Shown here piece after piece: positions 4,160 through 12,059 of a stretch of 64,000 bases of DNA. The translations under genes and the position numbers were made by a program. The notes beneath the pieces are model-generated. The model was not told the origin of the DNA. It saw only the letters and a program-made list of their open reading frames with translations, and did not search any database. The stretch is from Marinomonas rhizomae. Lineage in GTDB: Bacteria; Pseudomonadota; Gammaproteobacteria; Pseudomonadales; Marinomonadaceae. Each line of letters begins with the position of its first letter. Position 1 is the first letter of the stretch. The stretch covers positions 310,001 to 374,000 of the forward strand of contig NZ_QNSE01000001.1 of NCBI RefSeq assembly GCF_003315485.1, written 5' to 3'.

Positions 4160-4708
4160 TTAGAACAGGGTGCAAGTTATGGACTCTTTTGCTGTTGGGT
4201 TTGAGCAAACCTCAGCGTAAGCCGTTGGATTTCTCACCAACGAGTAGTGTGTATTTGAGTCTCGGCATAAGGCTAGAAAATCGTCATAGTGTTGATTGAA
4301 GTTTGCTCTTGTTATTTCGTAATTAATGCTTGCGTCATTATCACCAAAATTGTTATCTATAGCTTCTGTTTTGACTCGCTGAATTAGATAGGTTAACTCG
4401 TTGTATCTGCGTCTAACTTGATGGCAATAAGCACTATTAGGTGTAGTGTTGATGCATTCTGTCATTTCTGTTTCTAAATCTGCTAGTTCTGTTTGATAGC
4501 GCTCTAAATAGTTTATCGCTTGGCTATTTTTCCTGTGCGTCCTTTCTGACCGAAGCGATAACTCTTCTAATCTAGTCTCAGCTTTCTTTAAGAGCTCTTC
4601 CTTTACCAAGCAACTTTTTCCAAAAGCGATTAAGTCGTTGCCATGTACTAAGCTGATAAAAGTACATCCTAATATAAAAATGCTGGATTTAGTGGTCGAA
4701 ATACTCAT
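4160..4708 (-). CDS. Small secreted coiled-coil protein of unknown function
   Basis: I do not recognise this protein. It has 182 residues. The N-terminus has a hydrophobic stretch (about residues 8-21) ending near HGND, which fits a Sec signal peptide. The body is rich in charged heptad-like segments (about residues 33-85) that may form a coiled coil. Six cysteines lie in the mature part, which suggests disulphides and a periplasmic or secreted location. It converges with blc and is divergent from the pepsin-like gene. AT-rich codon use matches its neighbours. It could be a recent lineage-specific gene. Confidence 0.6.
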   Translation of the reverse strand: MSISTTKSSIFILGCTFISLVHGNDLIAFGKSCLVKEELLKKAETRLEELSLRSERTHRKNSQAINYLERYQTELADLETEMTECINTTPNSAYCHQVRRRYNELTYLIQRVKTEAIDNNFGDNDASINYEITRANFNQHYDDFLALCRDSNTHYSLVRNPTAYAEVCSNPTAKESITCTLF

Positions 4709-4789
4709 AAAGTTATTAACCCTGCTGTTTTTTTTGGCACGTTCATTGTATATGTCGTCAAGTATACACTGTGTTTTTCTGGAGGAAGT

Positions 4790-6022
4790 ATGGATAAGTC
4801 GTTATCGGTAAAAAATGAAAAAAAAGGGATTGTTATTTCTCTTGATCGGGGGCCTTATCAGAATAATGGTGCATCACCTTGGTATGCGTATGTTGGACTT
4901 GGTACGACTGCACAAGCGTTAAAGTTTTCCTTTGATACTGGCAGCAATTTTATTTGGGTGACTTCTAGTTTATGTGGATCGGATACTTGTCATCATTATG
5001 GAGATACAGAGTTTGTTTATGACAAATCAACGAGCTTTTCATGGATAAGTACGAAGCCAATTAATGTCGATTTTGGTCCATGGGGAAGTATGCAGGTACA
5101 AACGGGTAAGGATATTTTCACCTTAACGCCAGAGGCACTAGAAAAAATGGAGAATGGCTTAGTGTCTGTGTCTTCGGATGTATATTTAGCACAATCTTAT
5201 GAAGGTTCTCAGTTCAGGGAGCTTGATTGGGATGGCGGTATTGGTATTCCAAGCACAATGGATTTACCCGATTTCTCTTCCGTTTATCGATCTTACCGAG
5301 GTTTGACTCCGGGAAAAGAGCCAGAAACGACGTCATTTCATTTCTTTCAAAGTTTAGTTGATCAAGGGGTGGTCAATGCGAAAGATCCTTATGTCACTTT
5401 TCTAACTGATAACGATCGCAAGGTCGGTCAAGCCGCATTTGGGCAGCTGAATCAAGATTACCGAGAGAGTAGGGAGTATTTGTTTTTGCCTTGGGAACCT
5501 TATTCCATTGCGTCCGTGGCTTATATTTGGACAAGTCCACTAACTAGTTTTTCTGTGGGTGATGAGCAACTAATCAAAAAAGGTGACTCTTCAGTACCTA
5601 CTTGTTTCTTCTCCTTAGACTCTGGTTCCTCTCAATTTAAAGGAGACCCGGCGTTAATGGATGACGCTTTTAAACTGACTTCTTTATATGGTAAAGATGT
5701 AACGATTGAGCTTGGAGAAACAGATAAAAATGAGACGGGTAAATTAGTTATTCCGTCTTCAATTTACGATGTTTTTATTGAGGAGGGTGAGGGCAAAGGT
5801 AAAACTATTTCTCAATTTGCTCCTTTGGATGGAATGAACAATCTCGTTTTAGTCGGTTCCGTGCTCATGGACTATTTATATACTGTATATGAATACAAAA
5901 TTGTTTCCGATGGTTCTCAACGTTTTATAACACCTGTTGGGATGTGGATTTTTAATAAGCTTGATGGGGTAAAAGTTATTACAACTGAACAAGATTCGGT
6001 AGCACGTATTTTTCACTCATAA
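4790..6022 (+). CDS. Bacterial pepsin-like aspartic protease (family A1)
   Basis: Both catalytic motifs of a two-lobed pepsin are present: FDTGSNFIWV with D49 and LDSGSS with D277. GGIGI at about residues 149-153 corresponds to the pepsin F-D-G-I-L-G-L strand, and LVGSVLMDYLYTVYEY near residue 350 matches the second-lobe hydrophobic-glycine region. Family A1 is mainly eukaryotic; bacterial members such as the shewasins are few and are active without a propeptide. At 410 residues, with no visible signal peptide or propeptide, this could be cytoplasmic. GGAGG precedes the ATG at a good distance. Only 12 bp separate it from the avidin-like gene, followed by kinase and cyclase genes in the same direction, so they probably form one operon. 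The substrate is unknown. Confidence 0.88.
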   Translation: MDKSLSVKNEKKGIVISLDRGPYQNNGASPWYAYVGLGTTAQALKFSFDTGSNFIWVTSSLCGSDTCHHYGDTEFVYDKSTSFSWISTKPINVDFGPWGSMQVQTGKDIFTLTPEALEKMENGLVSVSSDVYLAQSYEGSQFRELDWDGGIGIPSTMDLPDFSSVYRSYRGLTPGKEPETTSFHFFQSLVDQGVVNAKDPYVTFLTDNDRKVGQAAFGQLNQDYRESREYLFLPWEPYSIASVAYIWTSPLTSFSVGDEQLIKKGDSSVPTCFFSLDSGSSQFKGDPALMDDAFKLTSLYGKDVTIELGETDKNETGKLVIPSSIYDVFIEEGEGKGKTISQFAPLDGMNNLVLVGSVLMDYLYTVYEYKIVSDGSQRFITPVGMWIFNKLDGVKVITTEQDSVARIFHS

Positions 6023-6034
6023 ATAGGAGGGGTT

Positions 6035-6820
6035 ATGTCTCAGAATTTAAATGGTTCTTGGGTGAATAGTTATGGCTCAAAAATGGATCTTCTCGTTGTC
6101 GAGGGTGGTGCCATCGTCGGTCAATACTCCTCGACAACAGGTTCTACAGGAATTTATAGCGTTATCGGACAATGTTCACCAAAGACACCACAAGAAGGTA
6201 AAGGCCTGGCCGTAGTTTTATCAATTTATTGGCACCCTATAAATGCAGAAACACCTGATGAAAGCTGGCACTGGGTATCCACTTATTGTGGTCAGCTTTT
6301 AGGTGCTGGTGAGCTGAGTGTTACTAATTCACTTGTTGCTACATGTGACTTTAATGGCTTTTCGTCGGGGGATTACATTGATAAGTTGGCTTTCCAAAAA
6401 GTGTCAAACGTATCTGATACATTCGTATCTTTGGTGCACTTTGAGTCCGAAGGCGTTGTGTTTGATAACCCTATTAATGGTGAATGGGTCGGCGTTAACC
6501 CTGAAGTTCAATTAAGCTTAACAGTAACAAATAATCATTATGGTTTGGTGCAAGGTGTTGCTAAGTATCAGGATACGATGATTACCTTGAAAGGGTTTAC
6601 GGATACAGGGGTTAATGATTTAGGTCGTCAAAGTATTAGTGTTTGTGGATATATGCGCGGTAGGAATGTCCCTGTTTCATTAAGCGGATGGTTAGACATA
6701 AGTAACAATTCTTTACAGCTATCTAGGTGGATTGCTAACGCCACAAGCCCTGAAAATGTTTACTATCAGTCTGATGTTGAAAGTTGGCTACTCAGAAAAA
6801 GTAACCGCAAGGATTATTAA
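6035..6820 (+). CDS. Tandem avidin-like protein (two avidin-type repeats)
   Basis: The N-terminus NGSWVNSYGSKMDL followed by GGAIVGQYSS closely follows the first strands of avidin and streptavidin. N11, S15, Y31 and S33 align with streptavidin N23, S27, Y43 and S45, all biotin contacts. W66 probably matches W79, and STYCGQLLG aligns with the TTWSGQY strand. The W108, W120 and D128 positions are not conserved in this first repeat. A second repeat starts near residue 147 (INGEWVG) and ends with LQLSRWIANAT and ESWLLRK; W232 aligns with W108, but the N/S/Y contacts are lost. No signal peptide is seen. Placement between a pepsin-like protease gene and a sensor kinase is unusual. Biotin binding is possible but unproven; it may be a non-biotin avidin-fold protein. 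Confidence 0.7.
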   Translation: MSQNLNGSWVNSYGSKMDLLVVEGGAIVGQYSSTTGSTGIYSVIGQCSPKTPQEGKGLAVVLSIYWHPINAETPDESWHWVSTYCGQLLGAGELSVTNSLVATCDFNGFSSGDYIDKLAFQKVSNVSDTFVSLVHFESEGVVFDNPINGEWVGVNPEVQLSLTVTNNHYGLVQGVAKYQDTMITLKGFTDTGVNDLGRQSISVCGYMRGRNVPVSLSGWLDISNNSLQLSRWIANATSPENVYYQSDVESWLLRKSNRKDY

Positions 6821-6839
6821 ATTGATGGAGCATAGTAGT

Positions 6840-9257
6840 ATGAATTTGATTAATACATTTGATCAAACCGAACATGATCAAATAATTATTGATTGCTTTT
6901 TGAAACTGTGGAGCTACTCTGCAGACCTAATGTTTATTATGTCCGTAGAGTCTAACGGCGAGTTTACTTTGTTTGATAATAATCCCGCATCAAGAGAAAT
7001 AATGGGGTTATCAAGAGAAGCGAAAATTCATCGCATGAATATTAGGGATACATGGGGCGATGATATTGTAGAGGGTCTTTATAGTTCTTATCGGAAAGCT
7101 ATCGCGGCACGAGAACCTATTTCAGTTGCCCAATACGCTACTTATGATGGTAAAGATGTCTATGTTGATACTTTGCTTGTGCCTATTTTTGATGCATCGG
7201 GTAACCCCATTTTTGTTTGTGGCGTAAGCCGTGATATTACAAAAATAAAAGAAGCTGAAATTGTTGCATTAAAAGCTAATGAAAAGCTGCTTGAGTACAG
7301 CGCAGCACTCGAAACGATCAATCAAGACCTGGATCACAAGGTACAAGAGCGAACCAAAGAGTTAGAAAGTGCAAAATGTACGGTAGAAGAAGCATTGGAA
7401 GCGAAATCTTCATTTGTTGCCAAGATGAGTCATGAAATACGCACGCCCATTAATGCTGTGATTGGATTAAGCCATTTAAGTTTAAAAACCGCTTTAAGTA
7501 TTGAACAGAAAGATTACATCAATACTATTTTATCTTCAGGGGAGACCCTACTTAGCCTTGTAAATGATGTACTCGATTTTTCGAAGATCGAGGCAGGTAA
7601 AATGAGTATAGAGGCGGTGCCTTTTTCGCCCAGATTAATTGTTCAGCATGCGATCAATATGAACGCAATTAAAGCCGAAGAAAAAAAACTAGCGGTAACG
7701 GCTGACATTTCTCCATCACTCCCTCCCATGCTTTTGGGTGACCCACTACGTATACAGCAAGTATTGATTAACCTTGTGACGAATGCTGTTAAATTTACCG
7801 AGTGCGGTGGTATATGTGTACGCATGTATACAGATGAAAAAAACGATAAAGATGTTTTGTTGAGATGCGACGTCATTGATACTGGCATAGGTATCTCGAA
7901 AACATATATAGATCAACTATTTCAATCTTTTCAGCAAGCTGATGACAGTATTACTCGTCAGTTTGGTGGGACTGGTTTAGGCTTAACTATTTCGCGTCAA
8001 CTTTGTGAGCTGATGGGGGGGGAGATTTGGGTTCATAGTGAATTAGGGCAAGGTTCTACGTTTAGTTTTACTCTACCTCTTAATATCGCATCGCATGCAT
8101 CTGTATATACAGAGGACATGTCTAGCAATGAAATGGTTGACCTAGCCACGGTTAATGAAAAGGTGGAAGGGGCTTTTAGTGATAAGTTACTTTATGAGGA
8201 TGGGGACGTTCCGGACTTTTCGCAATATCATGTCTTATTGGCGGAAGATAACTTAATAAATCAGAAGGTCATTTTAGGCTATTTGGGCGATACCTCTATC
8301 AATGTGGATGTGGCTGGTAATGGTGAAGAAGCTATTTATAAACTAAATAGTAAAAAATATGATTTGGTATTGATGGATATTCAAATGCCCATTATGGATG
8401 GTCTGGCAGCGGCTAGATACATTAGACGGTCTTCGGTATATGGTAATATTCCTATCATTGCTATGACAGCTCATGTCTCTGATGAGGCAAAAGAGCAGTC
8501 TGCACAAGCTGGTATGAATGCACATTTAGATAAACCAATTCAAAAATCAGAGTTATACAAAACATTACAAAAACATTTTGAAGTAAAAGATACTCATAAG
8601 TCTATACAAAAGCATGATTTTTTTGCTCCTAGTCATGATTCTTCCTACGATGAACTATTGTTTCAGCTCTCATCAATAGATACATTATCTGTTGATGATG
8701 CTATTGAGCATCTGAACGGGAAGAAAAGCTTATATCTTGATATTGCCACGGCTTTTTATAATAAATACAAGGTATTTTCGTTGCATGGATTTTTAGGTGA
8801 TGATTTGGCGATTGTTCTTCATTCATTGAAATCAAATTCAGCGTATATAGGTGCATTTGAATTGTCATCTTATTGTGCTGAGCTAGAAAGTAATATTAAG
8901 GAAGATGTACCAGATTTACATTTGTTAAGTCGTCTTGAAATGATGGTGAGCGATCTTAATGACTCACTTGAAAAGATATTAACGCCTTACTCTTCTCTGC
9001 TTGAATATAGTGAAGAAGCTAAGAGTTTTAATGAAAAGGATTTGCTGATTAAGCTGCAAGCTATTGTTCCATTATTAAAAAAATCAGATTTTTTTGTAGA
9101 AAACTACTTTAGTTTATTGCGCAAAACGGTCAGGGGAACAAGGTATACATTGGACGTCGAAAATATCATTTTCGATATAAAAAATATTGAGTTTGAGACG
9201 GCAACTGTAAAAGCATCTCAACTTATTTTGGCGCTTCGAGGCGATAAAAGACGATGA
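6840..9257 (+). CDS. Hybrid sensor histidine kinase (PAS-HisKA-HATPase-REC-HPt)
   Basis: The domain order is a PAS sensor (about residues 20-140), a coiled coil, HisKA with MSHEIRTP and phospho-acceptor H198, HATPase_c with the N box NLVTNAVKF and G boxes DTGIGIS and GGTGLGLTIS, REC with D513 in LVLMDIQMP, and HPt with HSLKSNSAYIG and H661. No transmembrane segment is visible, so it is probably a cytoplasmic sensor. The open frame runs back to 6732, inside the avidin-like gene. I chose the ATG at 6840 because GGAG lies 8 bases upstream; an ATG at 6825 is the alternative. It overlaps the diguanylate cyclase gene by 4 bases (ATGA), so translation is probably coupled. Its likely output is phosphotransfer to the REC domain of that cyclase. 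Confidence 0.92.
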   Translation: MNLINTFDQTEHDQIIIDCFLKLWSYSADLMFIMSVESNGEFTLFDNNPASREIMGLSREAKIHRMNIRDTWGDDIVEGLYSSYRKAIAAREPISVAQYATYDGKDVYVDTLLVPIFDASGNPIFVCGVSRDITKIKEAEIVALKANEKLLEYSAALETINQDLDHKVQERTKELESAKCTVEEALEAKSSFVAKMSHEIRTPINAVIGLSHLSLKTALSIEQKDYINTILSSGETLLSLVNDVLDFSKIEAGKMSIEAVPFSPRLIVQHAINMNAIKAEEKKLAVTADISPSLPPMLLGDPLRIQQVLINLVTNAVKFTECGGICVRMYTDEKNDKDVLLRCDVIDTGIGISKTYIDQLFQSFQQADDSITRQFGGTGLGLTISRQLCELMGGEIWVHSELGQGSTFSFTLPLNIASHASVYTEDMSSNEMVDLATVNEKVEGAFSDKLLYEDGDVPDFSQYHVLLAEDNLINQKVILGYLGDTSINVDVAGNGEEAIYKLNSKKYDLVLMDIQMPIMDGLAAARYIRRSSVYGNIPIIAMTAHVSDEAKEQSAQAGMNAHLDKPIQKSELYKTLQKHFEVKDTHKSIQKHDFFAPSHDSSYDELLFQLSSIDTLSVDDAIEHLNGKKSLYLDIATAFYNKYKVFSLHGFLGDDLAIVLHSLKSNSAYIGAFELSSYCAELESNIKEDVPDLHLLSRLEMMVSDLNDSLEKILTPYSSLLEYSEEAKSFNEKDLLIKLQAIVPLLKKSDFFVENYFSLLRKTVRGTRYTLDVENIIFDIKNIEFETATVKASQLILALRGDKRR

Positions 9258-10180
9258 CAGAAGAACAAAGTGTTTTAGTCATTGACGACGAAAAAATCAA
9301 CCTGAAAATAATCAGTGATATGCTTAACGATGAAGTTGTCGTTATGCTTGCAAAAAGTGGTGAGCAAGGCATTAGAAAAGCCATGGAATATAAGCCAGAT
9401 TTGATTTTATTGGATGTGGTGATGCCTGAAATGGATGGCTTTGAAACCATGTCCCTTCTTCGTCATGATGTGCGTACAAGTGCTATCCCTGTTATTTTTA
9501 TTACTGCATTAAATGATTCGAGCCATGAAGAAAAAGCGTTATTAATGGGGGCTAGTGATTACATTCAAAAGCCATTGCATACGAACATTGTTCAGGCTCG
9601 TGTACGTCTTCATTTACAGCTTGTAAAACAACGCAAGATGCTAGAGAAGTTGGCCAATATTGACCCTTTAACATCACTTGCCAACCGTCGTAAATACCAA
9701 AACGTTATTGAACAAGAATGGCAAAACGCAATCGCCAACCAAGCGAGTCTTTCTTTATTGGTAATTGATATCGACAACTTCAAACAATATAACGATTGCT
9801 ATGGACACGCCACAGGCGATAAGGTTCTACAGCAAGTGGCCACCGTATTGGCCAAGCAAGTATTAGACAAAGGACTTGTCGCAAGATATGGTGGTGAAGA
9901 GTTCGTCATTTTATTGCCTAGTCACTCTCAAGAAGAGTCAATTGAAGTGGCTCGTCGCTGTATGCAAGGTGTTGGATCGTTGAACTTAGCTTACACTCAT
10001 CAAAACTGTAGCGGCAAAGTAACAGTGAGTGTTGGTGGTGCTACAAAGTCTCCTAGTCCACATTGTCGCAGTGAAGACTTTTTTAATGCGGCTGATGGCA
10101 TGCTTGGGCTTGCTAAAAAGAGTGGTAAAAATAAAATATTATGGCACTCACCGAGTAACCTACACGCAGTTGTAGAGTGA
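9254..10180 (+). CDS. Response regulator diguanylate cyclase (REC-GGDEF)
   Basis: A receiver domain occupies residues 7-125, with acidic pair D11/D12, phospho-acceptor D54 in LILLDVVMP and conserved K106. A GGDEF domain follows, with an intact GGEEF signature at residues 213-217, so it should make cyclic di-GMP from two GTP. The usual RxxD inhibitory site just upstream reads LDKG, so product inhibition through that site is probably absent. The start overlaps the histidine kinase stop by 4 bases, and the HPt domain of that kinase is the obvious phospho-donor. The unit would link whatever the PAS sensor detects to c-di-GMP and so to motility or biofilm state. Confidence 0.93.
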   Translation: MTEEQSVLVIDDEKINLKIISDMLNDEVVVMLAKSGEQGIRKAMEYKPDLILLDVVMPEMDGFETMSLLRHDVRTSAIPVIFITALNDSSHEEKALLMGASDYIQKPLHTNIVQARVRLHLQLVKQRKMLEKLANIDPLTSLANRRKYQNVIEQEWQNAIANQASLSLLVIDIDNFKQYNDCYGHATGDKVLQQVATVLAKQVLDKGLVARYGGEEFVILLPSHSQEESIEVARRCMQGVGSLNLAYTHQNCSGKVTVSVGGATKSPSPHCRSEDFFNAADGMLGLAKKSGKNKILWHSPSNLHAVVE

Positions 10181-10223
10181 TATTTTCTAAATCACTCTAA
10201 TAGAAGGTTTGACAGATAACACA

Positions 10224-11552
10224 ATGAATCAGGTTAATAACTCATACGGATTAAAGACGCACCCATTACGAGATGCATTGTATGCAGAGTTGCATTCACG
10301 TCCATTTCAGGTTTTGCCCAGTCCAGCTAGAATCAGTTACCTCGCTGTTATTGTTGGGGCAGATCAAAAGCAAGCAGAATTTGAACATTTCTGTTCACTG
10401 TACAATCATTTTAACGGTACACCTCCAGAAAATGACAGTGTGTGTTTTGAAGTAGATTTTGGCTCTTTTAAGCTGCGTCGGGATAAGCACCTTGAGTTTA
10501 TTTCTTACATGATAATCCACACTCAAGTTGATACAGGGTTAGGTGTTTTTGCTCAAAACGCCTTGTCTTATTTGCCGCTTGAGTGGTTGTCAAATATGCC
10601 AGGTAATACTATTGCTGCCTTTCATGTAGCCGTTGAGGATGCTCGAACCATTCCTGAACCAGACTTAGCCCTCGTTAAGAGTCATTTTGAAGGAATGCGT
10701 TTAGTTGGCAGCCGCCCTCAAAATGGTGATGCTCAGGTCTGGACAACTTTTCAGCTGCACAGCGATGGTTGTGGCCGCTTTCTTATTTACAATAAGCGAA
10801 TGAGCGATAGTCAATTGGGTCGTATGGTCCAGCGCGTAGTCGAAATAGAAACCTACCGTTTGATGGCCTTATTAGCACTACCCATGGCGCGTAAATACAA
10901 CGCAGAATTGGTTGCCATGGACGAAGAGTTAGCGCAAACCACGGCTAATTTGTCTGACGCGACAGCAGCACTTGATGAGCAGGCTTTATTGAGTGAACTA
11001 ATTGATATGGCTGCTTGGGTCGAAGCGACTCGGTCAAAAACCTCATTTCGGTTCAGTGCCACAAGGGCATATCACGAGTTGGTTTTAAAGCGTTTAAATG
11101 AGTTAAAAGAAGACGAAGTATCAGGCCATTTAACCATTACCGAATTTATGACTCGTCGATTAACACCAGCAGTACGAACCTGTAATACAGCGGGTAATCA
11201 TTTAGAAAGCCTTTCTACGCGTATCGACAGGGTATCAGATATGATGCGTACCCAAGTAGAAATGTCGATTCAATCTCAGAACCAACAACTGCTCACCTCT
11301 ATGGATCGGCGCTCGAAAATTCAACTTGCCATGCAACACACAGTTGAGGGCCTGTCGGTAGCTGCAATCAGTTATTACAGTGTGGGACTGTTGAAGTTCT
11401 TGATCGAAGCGGTTTATGACAAAGGTGTCCATTTTGATAAAAGCCTAGTGATAGGTTTGTCGGTGCCTCTTGTGGTTGGTGGTGTGTGGTTAGCGACGCG
11501 AAAAATCCATAAGAGGTTTTTGTTGTTAGCTAAAGCAAAAGAAGAGAAATAG
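10224..11552 (+). CDS. DUF3422 family predicted membrane-anchored protein
   Basis: The N-terminal block LYAELHSRPFQ...PARISYLAV is characteristic of the DUF3422 family (about 420-450 residues). The centre is long and helical, and one or two hydrophobic segments near the C-terminus (about residues 370-430 from this start) would anchor it, with a short basic tail. The biochemical role is unknown. I chose the ATG at 10224. A TTG at 10209 in the same frame sits only one base from AGAAGG, while the ATG is 16 bases from it, so the start is uncertain. It lies 43 bases after the cyclase gene in the same direction and might be co-transcribed. Confidence 0.8.
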   Translation: MNQVNNSYGLKTHPLRDALYAELHSRPFQVLPSPARISYLAVIVGADQKQAEFEHFCSLYNHFNGTPPENDSVCFEVDFGSFKLRRDKHLEFISYMIIHTQVDTGLGVFAQNALSYLPLEWLSNMPGNTIAAFHVAVEDARTIPEPDLALVKSHFEGMRLVGSRPQNGDAQVWTTFQLHSDGCGRFLIYNKRMSDSQLGRMVQRVVEIETYRLMALLALPMARKYNAELVAMDEELAQTTANLSDATAALDEQALLSELIDMAAWVEATRSKTSFRFSATRAYHELVLKRLNELKEDEVSGHLTITEFMTRRLTPAVRTCNTAGNHLESLSTRIDRVSDMMRTQVEMSIQSQNQQLLTSMDRRSKIQLAMQHTVEGLSVAAISYYSVGLLKFLIEAVYDKGVHFDKSLVIGLSVPLVVGGVWLATRKIHKRFLLLAKAKEEK

Positions 11553-12002: not shown

Positions 12003-12027
12003 TTCGCTACTCAGAATATTTAAGAAA

Positions 12028-12059
12028 GGGTAAGTTCTTCGGAACTTACCCTTTTTTTT
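12028..12059 (+). terminator. Rho-independent terminator of the csp gene
   Basis: A perfect 10-bp stem, GGGTAAGTTC (12028-12037) with GAACTTACCC (12042-12051), encloses a TTCG tetraloop and is followed by eight T residues. It lies 25 bases after the csp stop codon. Confidence 0.95.

Follow-up and report, generated by a model that had tools for sequence, protein, structure and literature searches.

A pepsin-like protein and a tandem avidin-like protein as a possible accessory receptor of a hybrid histidine kinase in Marinomonas

Little is known about what pepsins, or avidins, do in the bacteria that encode them. A locus of Marinomonas rhizomae in which a gene for each (hereafter the pair) stands directly before the genes of a hybrid histidine kinase and a REC-GGDEF response regulator (the cyclase) raises the question of what the two proteins do in that company. 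We analysed this locus within a stretch of 64,000 nucleotides (the window, to which all coordinates refer) and in related genomes. At a probability of roughly 0.48, the reading that we prefer is that the pair is a cytoplasmic accessory receptor of the neighbouring kinase, feeding a c-di-GMP phosphorelay.

Open reading frames confirmed the gene coordinates, the common strand and the close spacing reported in the original prediction (Table 1). The pepsin stop (6022) is followed after 12 bases by the avidin ATG (6035), the avidin stop (6820) after 19 bases by the kinase ATG (6840, with an alternative ATG at 6825), and the cyclase ATG (9254) overlaps the kinase stop (9257) by 4 bases (ATGA). The four genes make up one apparent operon, a proposal that is supported by their conservation together with the kinase (see below). 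Since a DUF3422 gene begins 28 bases further on and a long terminator-like hairpin follows it, the transcript may span five genes; terminator-like sites in the region numbered 6, against 5.0 expected by chance. DUF3422 lies directly downstream in 9/15 of the pepsin loci found in the genus, and it also adjoins the displaced cyclase of one genome (G038). A consensus scan for a promoter 5' of the pepsin gene gave no match. As judged by eye, the same or a similar AAGTATACACT element lies upstream of pepsin in the 12 loci that have a GH79 context, being most altered in L022 and L029, and was not seen there in L031-L033. The small divergent gene upstream is kept 5' of pepsin in 12/15 pepsin loci and is also found adjoining kinase or cyclase loci that lack the pair.

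Table 1. Positions of the genes, domains and candidate signals of the locus within the window.
Feature	Position	Strand	Basis
Small protein, divergent, 5' of pepsin	4160-4708	-	without Pfam match over cut-off
AAGTATACACT element, 20-30 bases 5' of pepsin start; possible -10 region	4760..4770	+	
Pepsin-like (family A1) protein, 410 aa	4790..6022	+	Pfam, alignment A1, hydropathy
Tandem avidin-like protein, 261 aa	6035..6820	+	Pfam, model, Foldseek, VIA-align, alignment A2
Avidin barrel 1 (predicted)	~6035-6409	+	structure model
Avidin barrel 2 (predicted)	~6467-6805	+	structure model
Soluble hybrid histidine kinase	6840..9257	+	Pfam, motifs, hydropathy
Kinase PAS domain	6963-7244	+	Pfam, motifs
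Kinase HisKA domain	7401-7598	+	Pfam, motifs
Kinase HATPase domain	7737-8084	+	Pfam, motifs
Kinase receiver domain	8232-8567	+	Pfam, motifs
Kinase Hpt-like domain	8808-8960	+	Pfam, motifs
REC-GGDEF response regulator, probable diguanylate cyclase	9254..10180	+	Pfam, motif
DUF3422 protein, 28 bases downstream of REC-GGDEF; possible fifth gene of the transcript	10209..11552	+	Pfam
Terminator-like hairpin after the run, 16 pairs, T-rich tail	12022..12057	+	terminator scan

The first protein of the run belongs to pepsin family A1 (Pfam PF00026, E = 4e-14; 53.2 bits against a cut-off of 19.9). Both catalytic Asp-Thr/Ser-Gly motifs are present (D49, codon 4934-4936; D277, codon 5618-5620), in all 15 Marinomonas proteins of alignment A1 and in 10/10 pepsin-avidin fusion proteins from outside the genus, and the Trp after the first motif is invariant in the same two sets. 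The second hydrophobic-hydrophobic-Gly motif also looks present, as an LVG that is invariant in 15/15. In a sequence alignment to chymosin, which is not a structural one, the flap Tyr (Tyr75) is replaced by Phe95 (codon 5072-5074). Phe occupies this position in 15/15 Marinomonas proteins and 10/10 fusions, with an invariant Trp-Gly nearby, and D49, F95, W98 and D277 are each invariant in 15/15 (alignment A1). The replacement of the flap Tyr may weaken catalysis, and in the accessible text of Rawlings and Bateman (2009; PMC2761423) the Marinomonas pepsin is placed in a separate group that is thought likely to be inactive. The predicted model of the pepsin had a pLDDT of 34.9, and no fold, bilobed or otherwise, was read from it. 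Ratios of dN/dS were 0.10-0.24 for pepsin (three pairs) and 0.13-0.20 for avidin (five pairs), and at the level of coding sequence these values point to clear purifying selection on both genes.

The second protein matched the avidin family over residues 4-73 only (Pfam PF01382, 1.3e-6; 29.2 bits against a cut-off of 24). A model built from five sequences (mean pLDDT 69.9) predicted an eight-stranded barrel twice over, and its best PDB matches in Foldseek, at full length, were engineered single-chain dimeric streptavidins (Z 22.2, rmsd 2.9 over 224 residues). Compared separately with streptavidin chains, residues 1-125 gave Z 13.8 and residues 145-260 gave Z 13.5. The tandem avidin of the original prediction was therefore borne out by structure (2 x 8 strands, Z 22.2) but not by sequence, since a profile-profile comparison of the two halves found no internal repeat (P = 0.29). 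In the model, the protein is a double barrel that occurs naturally as a single chain. The streptavidin residues N23, S27, Y43, S45, W79, S88, T90, W92, W108 and D128 are those that we take to be its ligand contacts. At the positions of N23, S27, Y43, S45, W79 and T90, barrel 1 has N, S, Y, S, W and S, and it does so in 14/14 aligned Marinomonas proteins (alignment A2; the copy of G006, the fifteenth, is cut by a contig end) and in 10/10 fusions (compared in a residue table of these fusions with 9 of the 15 Marinomonas rows). Throughout the same 14/14 and 10/10 proteins, Trp stands at the S88 position and Leu at W108; the W92 position is Tyr, Leu, Met or Phe among relatives and Tyr in the window protein, and D128 has no clear match. 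Barrel 2 does not keep the set of contact residues (alignment A2, by eye). Going by these residues, barrel 1 keeps the ureido-ring contacts and a cyclic ureide head would fit, and a biotin tail would probably take a position other than that in streptavidin. Since S88 and W108 are replaced by Trp and Leu and D128 is unmatched, classical biotin binding is doubtful, and to name biotin as the settled ligand would be too strong where the S88, W108 and possibly D128 contacts differ. The streptavidin equivalog model NCBIfam NF047623 gave 23.1 bits, against a cut-off of 300. Avidins of three Marinomonas strains have been reported, in the accessible text of Laitinen et al. (2021; PMC8033661), to carry a C-terminal extension of unidentified nature in which no domain was found.

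The third protein combines PAS_4, HisKA, HATPase_c and Response_reg domains with a C-terminal Hpt match that is weak (22.9 against a cut-off of 24.6), and its relay motifs are SHEIRTP, GTGLGL, MDIQMP and the Hpt-like HSLKSNSAYIGA. The fourth has Response_reg and GGDEF domains, with the receiver Asp and a GGEEF motif present; an RxxD inhibitory site was not seen in it by eye. The kinase probably controls c-di-GMP. Its highest 19-residue hydropathy is 1.40, and none of the four proteins has a transmembrane stretch or, by hydropathy only, an apparent signal peptide. All four therefore appear to be cytoplasmic and can meet there, and secretion of the window proteins was set aside on the same hydropathy.

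We surveyed the neighbourhood in 48 Marinomonas genomes. Pepsin occurs in 15/48 and avidin in the same 15, with avidin scraps besides in G029. The order pepsin-avidin-kinase is found in 15/15 (in G006 across a contig break), and the REC-GGDEF gene comes next in 13/15 pepsin loci. In the 12/15 loci where gaps were measured, 11-55 bases separate pepsin from avidin and 4-37 bases separate avidin from the kinase. Pepsin loci lie in four genomic settings, 12/15 having a GH79 gene on the upstream side; in the other three (L031, L032 and L033) the flanks differ and the trio of pepsin, avidin and kinase is still together. Since the neighbourhood is conserved in every pepsin-bearing genome of the genus, with the kinase beside the pair each time, chance adjacency is excluded, and the prediction came through a comparison with relatives that could have overturned it. 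The kinase and cyclase might nevertheless be bystanders, carried along by vertically inherited gene order, with only pepsin and avidin belonging together. The confinement to one genus, the GH79-side setting shared by 12/15 loci and the absence of the pair from the eight other kinase loci examined (L036, L037, L038, L041, L042, L044, L045 and L047) would suit such neighbours without joint function. However, the trio is kept in three other settings, the measured gaps are short and the kinase adjoins the pair in 15/15 while the flanks vary, and we consider this explanation unlikely.

Several loci depart from the common layout. In G038 the 3' end of the kinase runs into insertion-element-like sequence (L024:13150-13400), and the cyclase and DUF3422 lie ~50 kb away, reversed, at the contig's other end. 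In G023, the reading frame of the Hpt part differs from that of the remaining kinase (L031:12461-13047), either through a frameshift or as a separate gene. Two of the kinase loci without the pair encode proteins of ~2,200 aa (L045:5431-12156 and L047:3726-10424) whose start looks Ser/Thr-kinase-like by eye and whose C-terminal part is a hybrid kinase; each lies directly 5' of a REC-GGDEF gene related to that of the window. Genes resembling N-carbamoylputrescine amidase and agmatine deiminase (by eye) lie just 5' of pepsin in G020 (L032:5783-8166), which puts a ureido metabolite beside pepsin once again, possibly by chance. The REC-GGDEF survey scored candidates of a first look, at most 48 per genome, and 24 of the 31 places were examined, the remainder being second copies in G032, G025, G038, G043 and G044 and two in G035.

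Loss of the pair has left traces. G029 retains avidin scraps only, and G005 retains pepsin residues 5-37 and avidin residues 190-255; both keep kinase and cyclase. Possible remnants in G017 were weak matches (E 0.24-0.5) and were not counted. The genomes G003 and G023 share flanking genes (by eye) and have sister kinases, the pair being absent from the former and present in the latter. Among the loci examined, kinase and cyclase were seen without the pair, and no locus had the pair but lacked the kinase. In a tree of the kinases (L031 entered by its first 599 residues only, L045 and L047 by their last 1000), the pair switches between present and absent 6 times over 21 rows, a number close to that given by shuffled labels, so its presence follows no deep lineage. 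Since pair-only losses are few (two clear remnants and one faint), the one-way pattern is not statistically firm; it suggests that the kinase carries the pair as an optional attachment, in numbers too small for a test.

Gene order does not fix whether the pair is input or output. As an output, it would be a set of co-expressed effectors, in effect a targeted protease, of a kinase-cyclase module that senses through its own PAS domain. A protease, LapG, is an end point of c-di-GMP control elsewhere. The catalytic dyad is intact in 15/15 and 10/10 proteins, and the kinase, having its own PAS, persists without the pair, as would be expected of a complete sensor minus its effector. Yet the pair opens the run and has the kinase, not the cyclase, as its direct neighbour, G033 has the pair with the kinase and no adjacent cyclase (a cyclase lies elsewhere with a second kinase), and every aligned pepsin has Phe for the flap Tyr, which may weaken catalysis. 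We regard an output role as somewhat unlikely. The kinase as the likely reader of the pair, which the original prediction had raised as a possibility, is supported.

Beyond Marinomonas, searches with the pepsin profile detected this type in two other genera, in two Pseudomonas-like genomes out of 390 of the order and in one distant genome (G457) out of 398 of the phylum, and in all three pepsin and avidin form one chain. Within the Pseudomonas-like genus, pepsin was found in 9/298 genomes, fused to avidin in 9/9. Weak partial pepsin matches in G246 (E = 3e-9) and G054 (E = 3e-7), maybe other A1 proteins, were not counted as members, and no avidin match was present in the stretches fetched round them. 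The avidin family was found in one of 369 genomes of the class, the window's own. Carriage of pepsin by plasmids and of avidin by phages was considered and rejected, since searches of 72,556 plasmid records (at E of up to 1e-4) and of 50,697 phage records (at E of up to 1e-3), respectively, gave no match. No relative of the window kinase or of its REC-GGDEF protein was found in the stretches fetched round 10 fusions; the kinase-linked arrangement was seen in Marinomonas only, and the link to the kinase may therefore be local.

The fusions have a setting of their own. Seven of the nine (L059, L060, L072, L074, L075, L076 and L078) follow, on the same strand, a run of HyuA, HyuB, a small protein, an Asp/Glu/hydantoin racemase and an MFS transporter, and the other two lie in other settings. 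The MFS gene, surveyed from 5 candidates per genome at E of at most 1e-140, occurs in 11/298 genomes, 7 with the fusion and 4 with a tandem avidin without pepsin in the same place (L089-L092). Pfam named HyuA, HyuB, racemase and MFS in L060 and HyuA, HyuB and MFS in L059; NCBIfam was used for L060 only, where the racemase had no match, and the genes of the other loci were assigned by tblastn similarity. HyuA and HyuB of L060 matched caprolactamase models best, at scores far under the cut-offs (497.7 and 204.2 against 1000). Enzymes of the hydantoinase-like family open the rings of cyclic amides and ureides. A hydantoinase B gene is absent from the window genome. Since the lone avidins branch among fused ones (moderate support, 82/85, in a tree whose long G457 branch was flagged unsafe) and the outgroups have pepsin, loss of pepsin is the simplest reading. 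A MalT/LuxR-like gene lies upstream in L074 and, by eye, in other loci reaching that far. An M24-peptidase-like gene (by eye) follows HyuB in L089-L092 and L059; none was found in the remaining 8 fusion loci of the Pseudomonas-like genus. The fusion of G457 (L061:8800-13769) has, as the sole such case, a signal-peptide-like start by eye, and is followed by an AAA_16-TPR (STAND-type) protein.

Inheritance also couples the two proteins within Marinomonas. In a mosaic locus of G018 (L023:8325-10374), the pepsin is window-like over its first 120 columns (90-94%), and pepsin columns 181-420 and the avidin resemble those of G038 (93-100% and 89-100%, respectively), a pattern which indicates that the C-terminal half of pepsin and the avidin moved as one block. 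This block, together with the single-chain fusions and the joint invariance of the catalytic Asp pair and the ureido contacts, could also speak for a biotin- or ureide-directed protease, in which barrel 1 would dock a ligand-tagged protein or peptide for cleavage by pepsin, and a signal would come from the cleavage product or from the complex once emptied. Against such a protease, 4/11 of the Pseudomonas-like runs have avidin without pepsin, so cutting is not needed there, and we judge it improbable. The adjacency of the genes and the same coupled inheritance might be put down to an avidin-like protein that is the inhibitor or the substrate of the pepsin, two options of the original prediction. 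These have become less likely in view of the one-chain fusions and the four runs with tandem avidin but no pepsin; moreover, neither role needs the invariant residues of the ureido pocket, and we think either very improbable. The third option that had been offered, a ligand-binding partner, fits best.

In the scheme that we infer for Marinomonas, the pepsin-like and tandem avidin-like proteins would form one cytoplasmic complex that acts as the accessory receptor of the neighbouring kinase. The ligand of barrel 1 would be a small molecule or a tagged peptide whose head is a cyclic ureide (biotin, a biotinyl-peptide or a hydantoin-like ring); barrel 2 would be the degenerate partner of barrel 1, and the pepsin lobe would bind, and perhaps cut, a peptide. 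Occupancy by ligand would alter autophosphorylation of the PAS hybrid kinase, phosphate would pass His-Asp-His to the receiver of the REC-GGDEF protein, and c-di-GMP would change. A broader view, which we put forward tentatively and hold to be possible though doubtful, is that pepsin plus single-chain double avidin is an unrecognised class of receptors whose ligands are cyclic ureides, either peptides tagged with biotin or hydantoin-like rings, and which is placed in a c-di-GMP phosphorelay in Marinomonas and in hydantoinase-like catabolic runs in the Pseudomonas-like genus. The avidin fold would then serve intracellular signalling, not defensive biotin hoarding, and the pepsin would be an arm for peptide binding or ligand-directed cutting. 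The conserved kinase setting in one genus and the hydantoinase-like run in another offer a testable partner and a testable ligand class for bacterial pepsins and avidins, and the setting suggests that avidin barrels can act as sensors inside the cell. There may be practical interest, too, in a naturally occurring single-chain avidin that has, as modelled, one live and one degenerate barrel.

Parts of this arrangement have known counterparts. Pepsin-avidin fusion proteins have been described in six species (Laitinen et al., 2021; PMC8033661), so the link between the two domains, which the original prediction had taken to be undescribed, was already in print; for an operon with a kinase and c-di-GMP output that description stands, as far as we found. 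These fusions, which belong to the 'extended' and beta6 clades of avidins, have the same two domains, mostly in the same order, whereas the window has separate genes in a run with a hybrid kinase and a REC-GGDEF gene. The 'extended' clade includes the Marinomonas avidins that carry a C-terminal extension, and we read this extension as a second avidin-type barrel; the accessible text of the same paper makes no mention of kinase, cyclase or hydantoinase-like neighbours. A literature search that left aside supplements, most subscription papers and preprints found neither a pepsin-avidin-kinase/c-di-GMP operon nor a natural tandem avidin or second barrel, nor a hydantoinase-avidin setting. Engineered single-chain dimeric streptavidin (PDB 6s50 and 6s4q) likewise has two avidin barrels in one chain, whereas the window avidin is natural, shares 18% identity with it and has the ligand contacts in one barrel only. 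Shewasins A and D, active bacterial pepsins, belong to family A1 like the window pepsin, and shewasin D, from another pepsin group, is cytoplasmic and active, according to the accessible part of the source (PMC4814920); what sets the clade of the window apart is an avidin partner and a Phe in place of the flap Tyr. The nearest parallel to the proposed mechanism is offered by the H-NOX and NosP accessory sensors, which are encoded beside histidine kinases controlling c-di-GMP (reviewed in PMC8738867, in its accessible part). A NosP-type assignment of the kinase was rejected, the NahK models scoring far under their cut-offs (134.9 against 400 and 113.2 against 1500), and Pfam matched none of the four genes to a haem sensor domain (HNOB or FIST); the putative sensor here would be pepsin plus avidin rather than a haem protein. 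As in those systems, a candidate sensor gene adjoins the kinase and a c-di-GMP enzyme is the likely output, here with a soluble hybrid kinase and a REC-GGDEF gene side by side and, by analogy, a putative sensor role for the neighbouring pair. Lacking a haem domain, the Marinomonas system would be no member of the H-NOX systems and would work like them.
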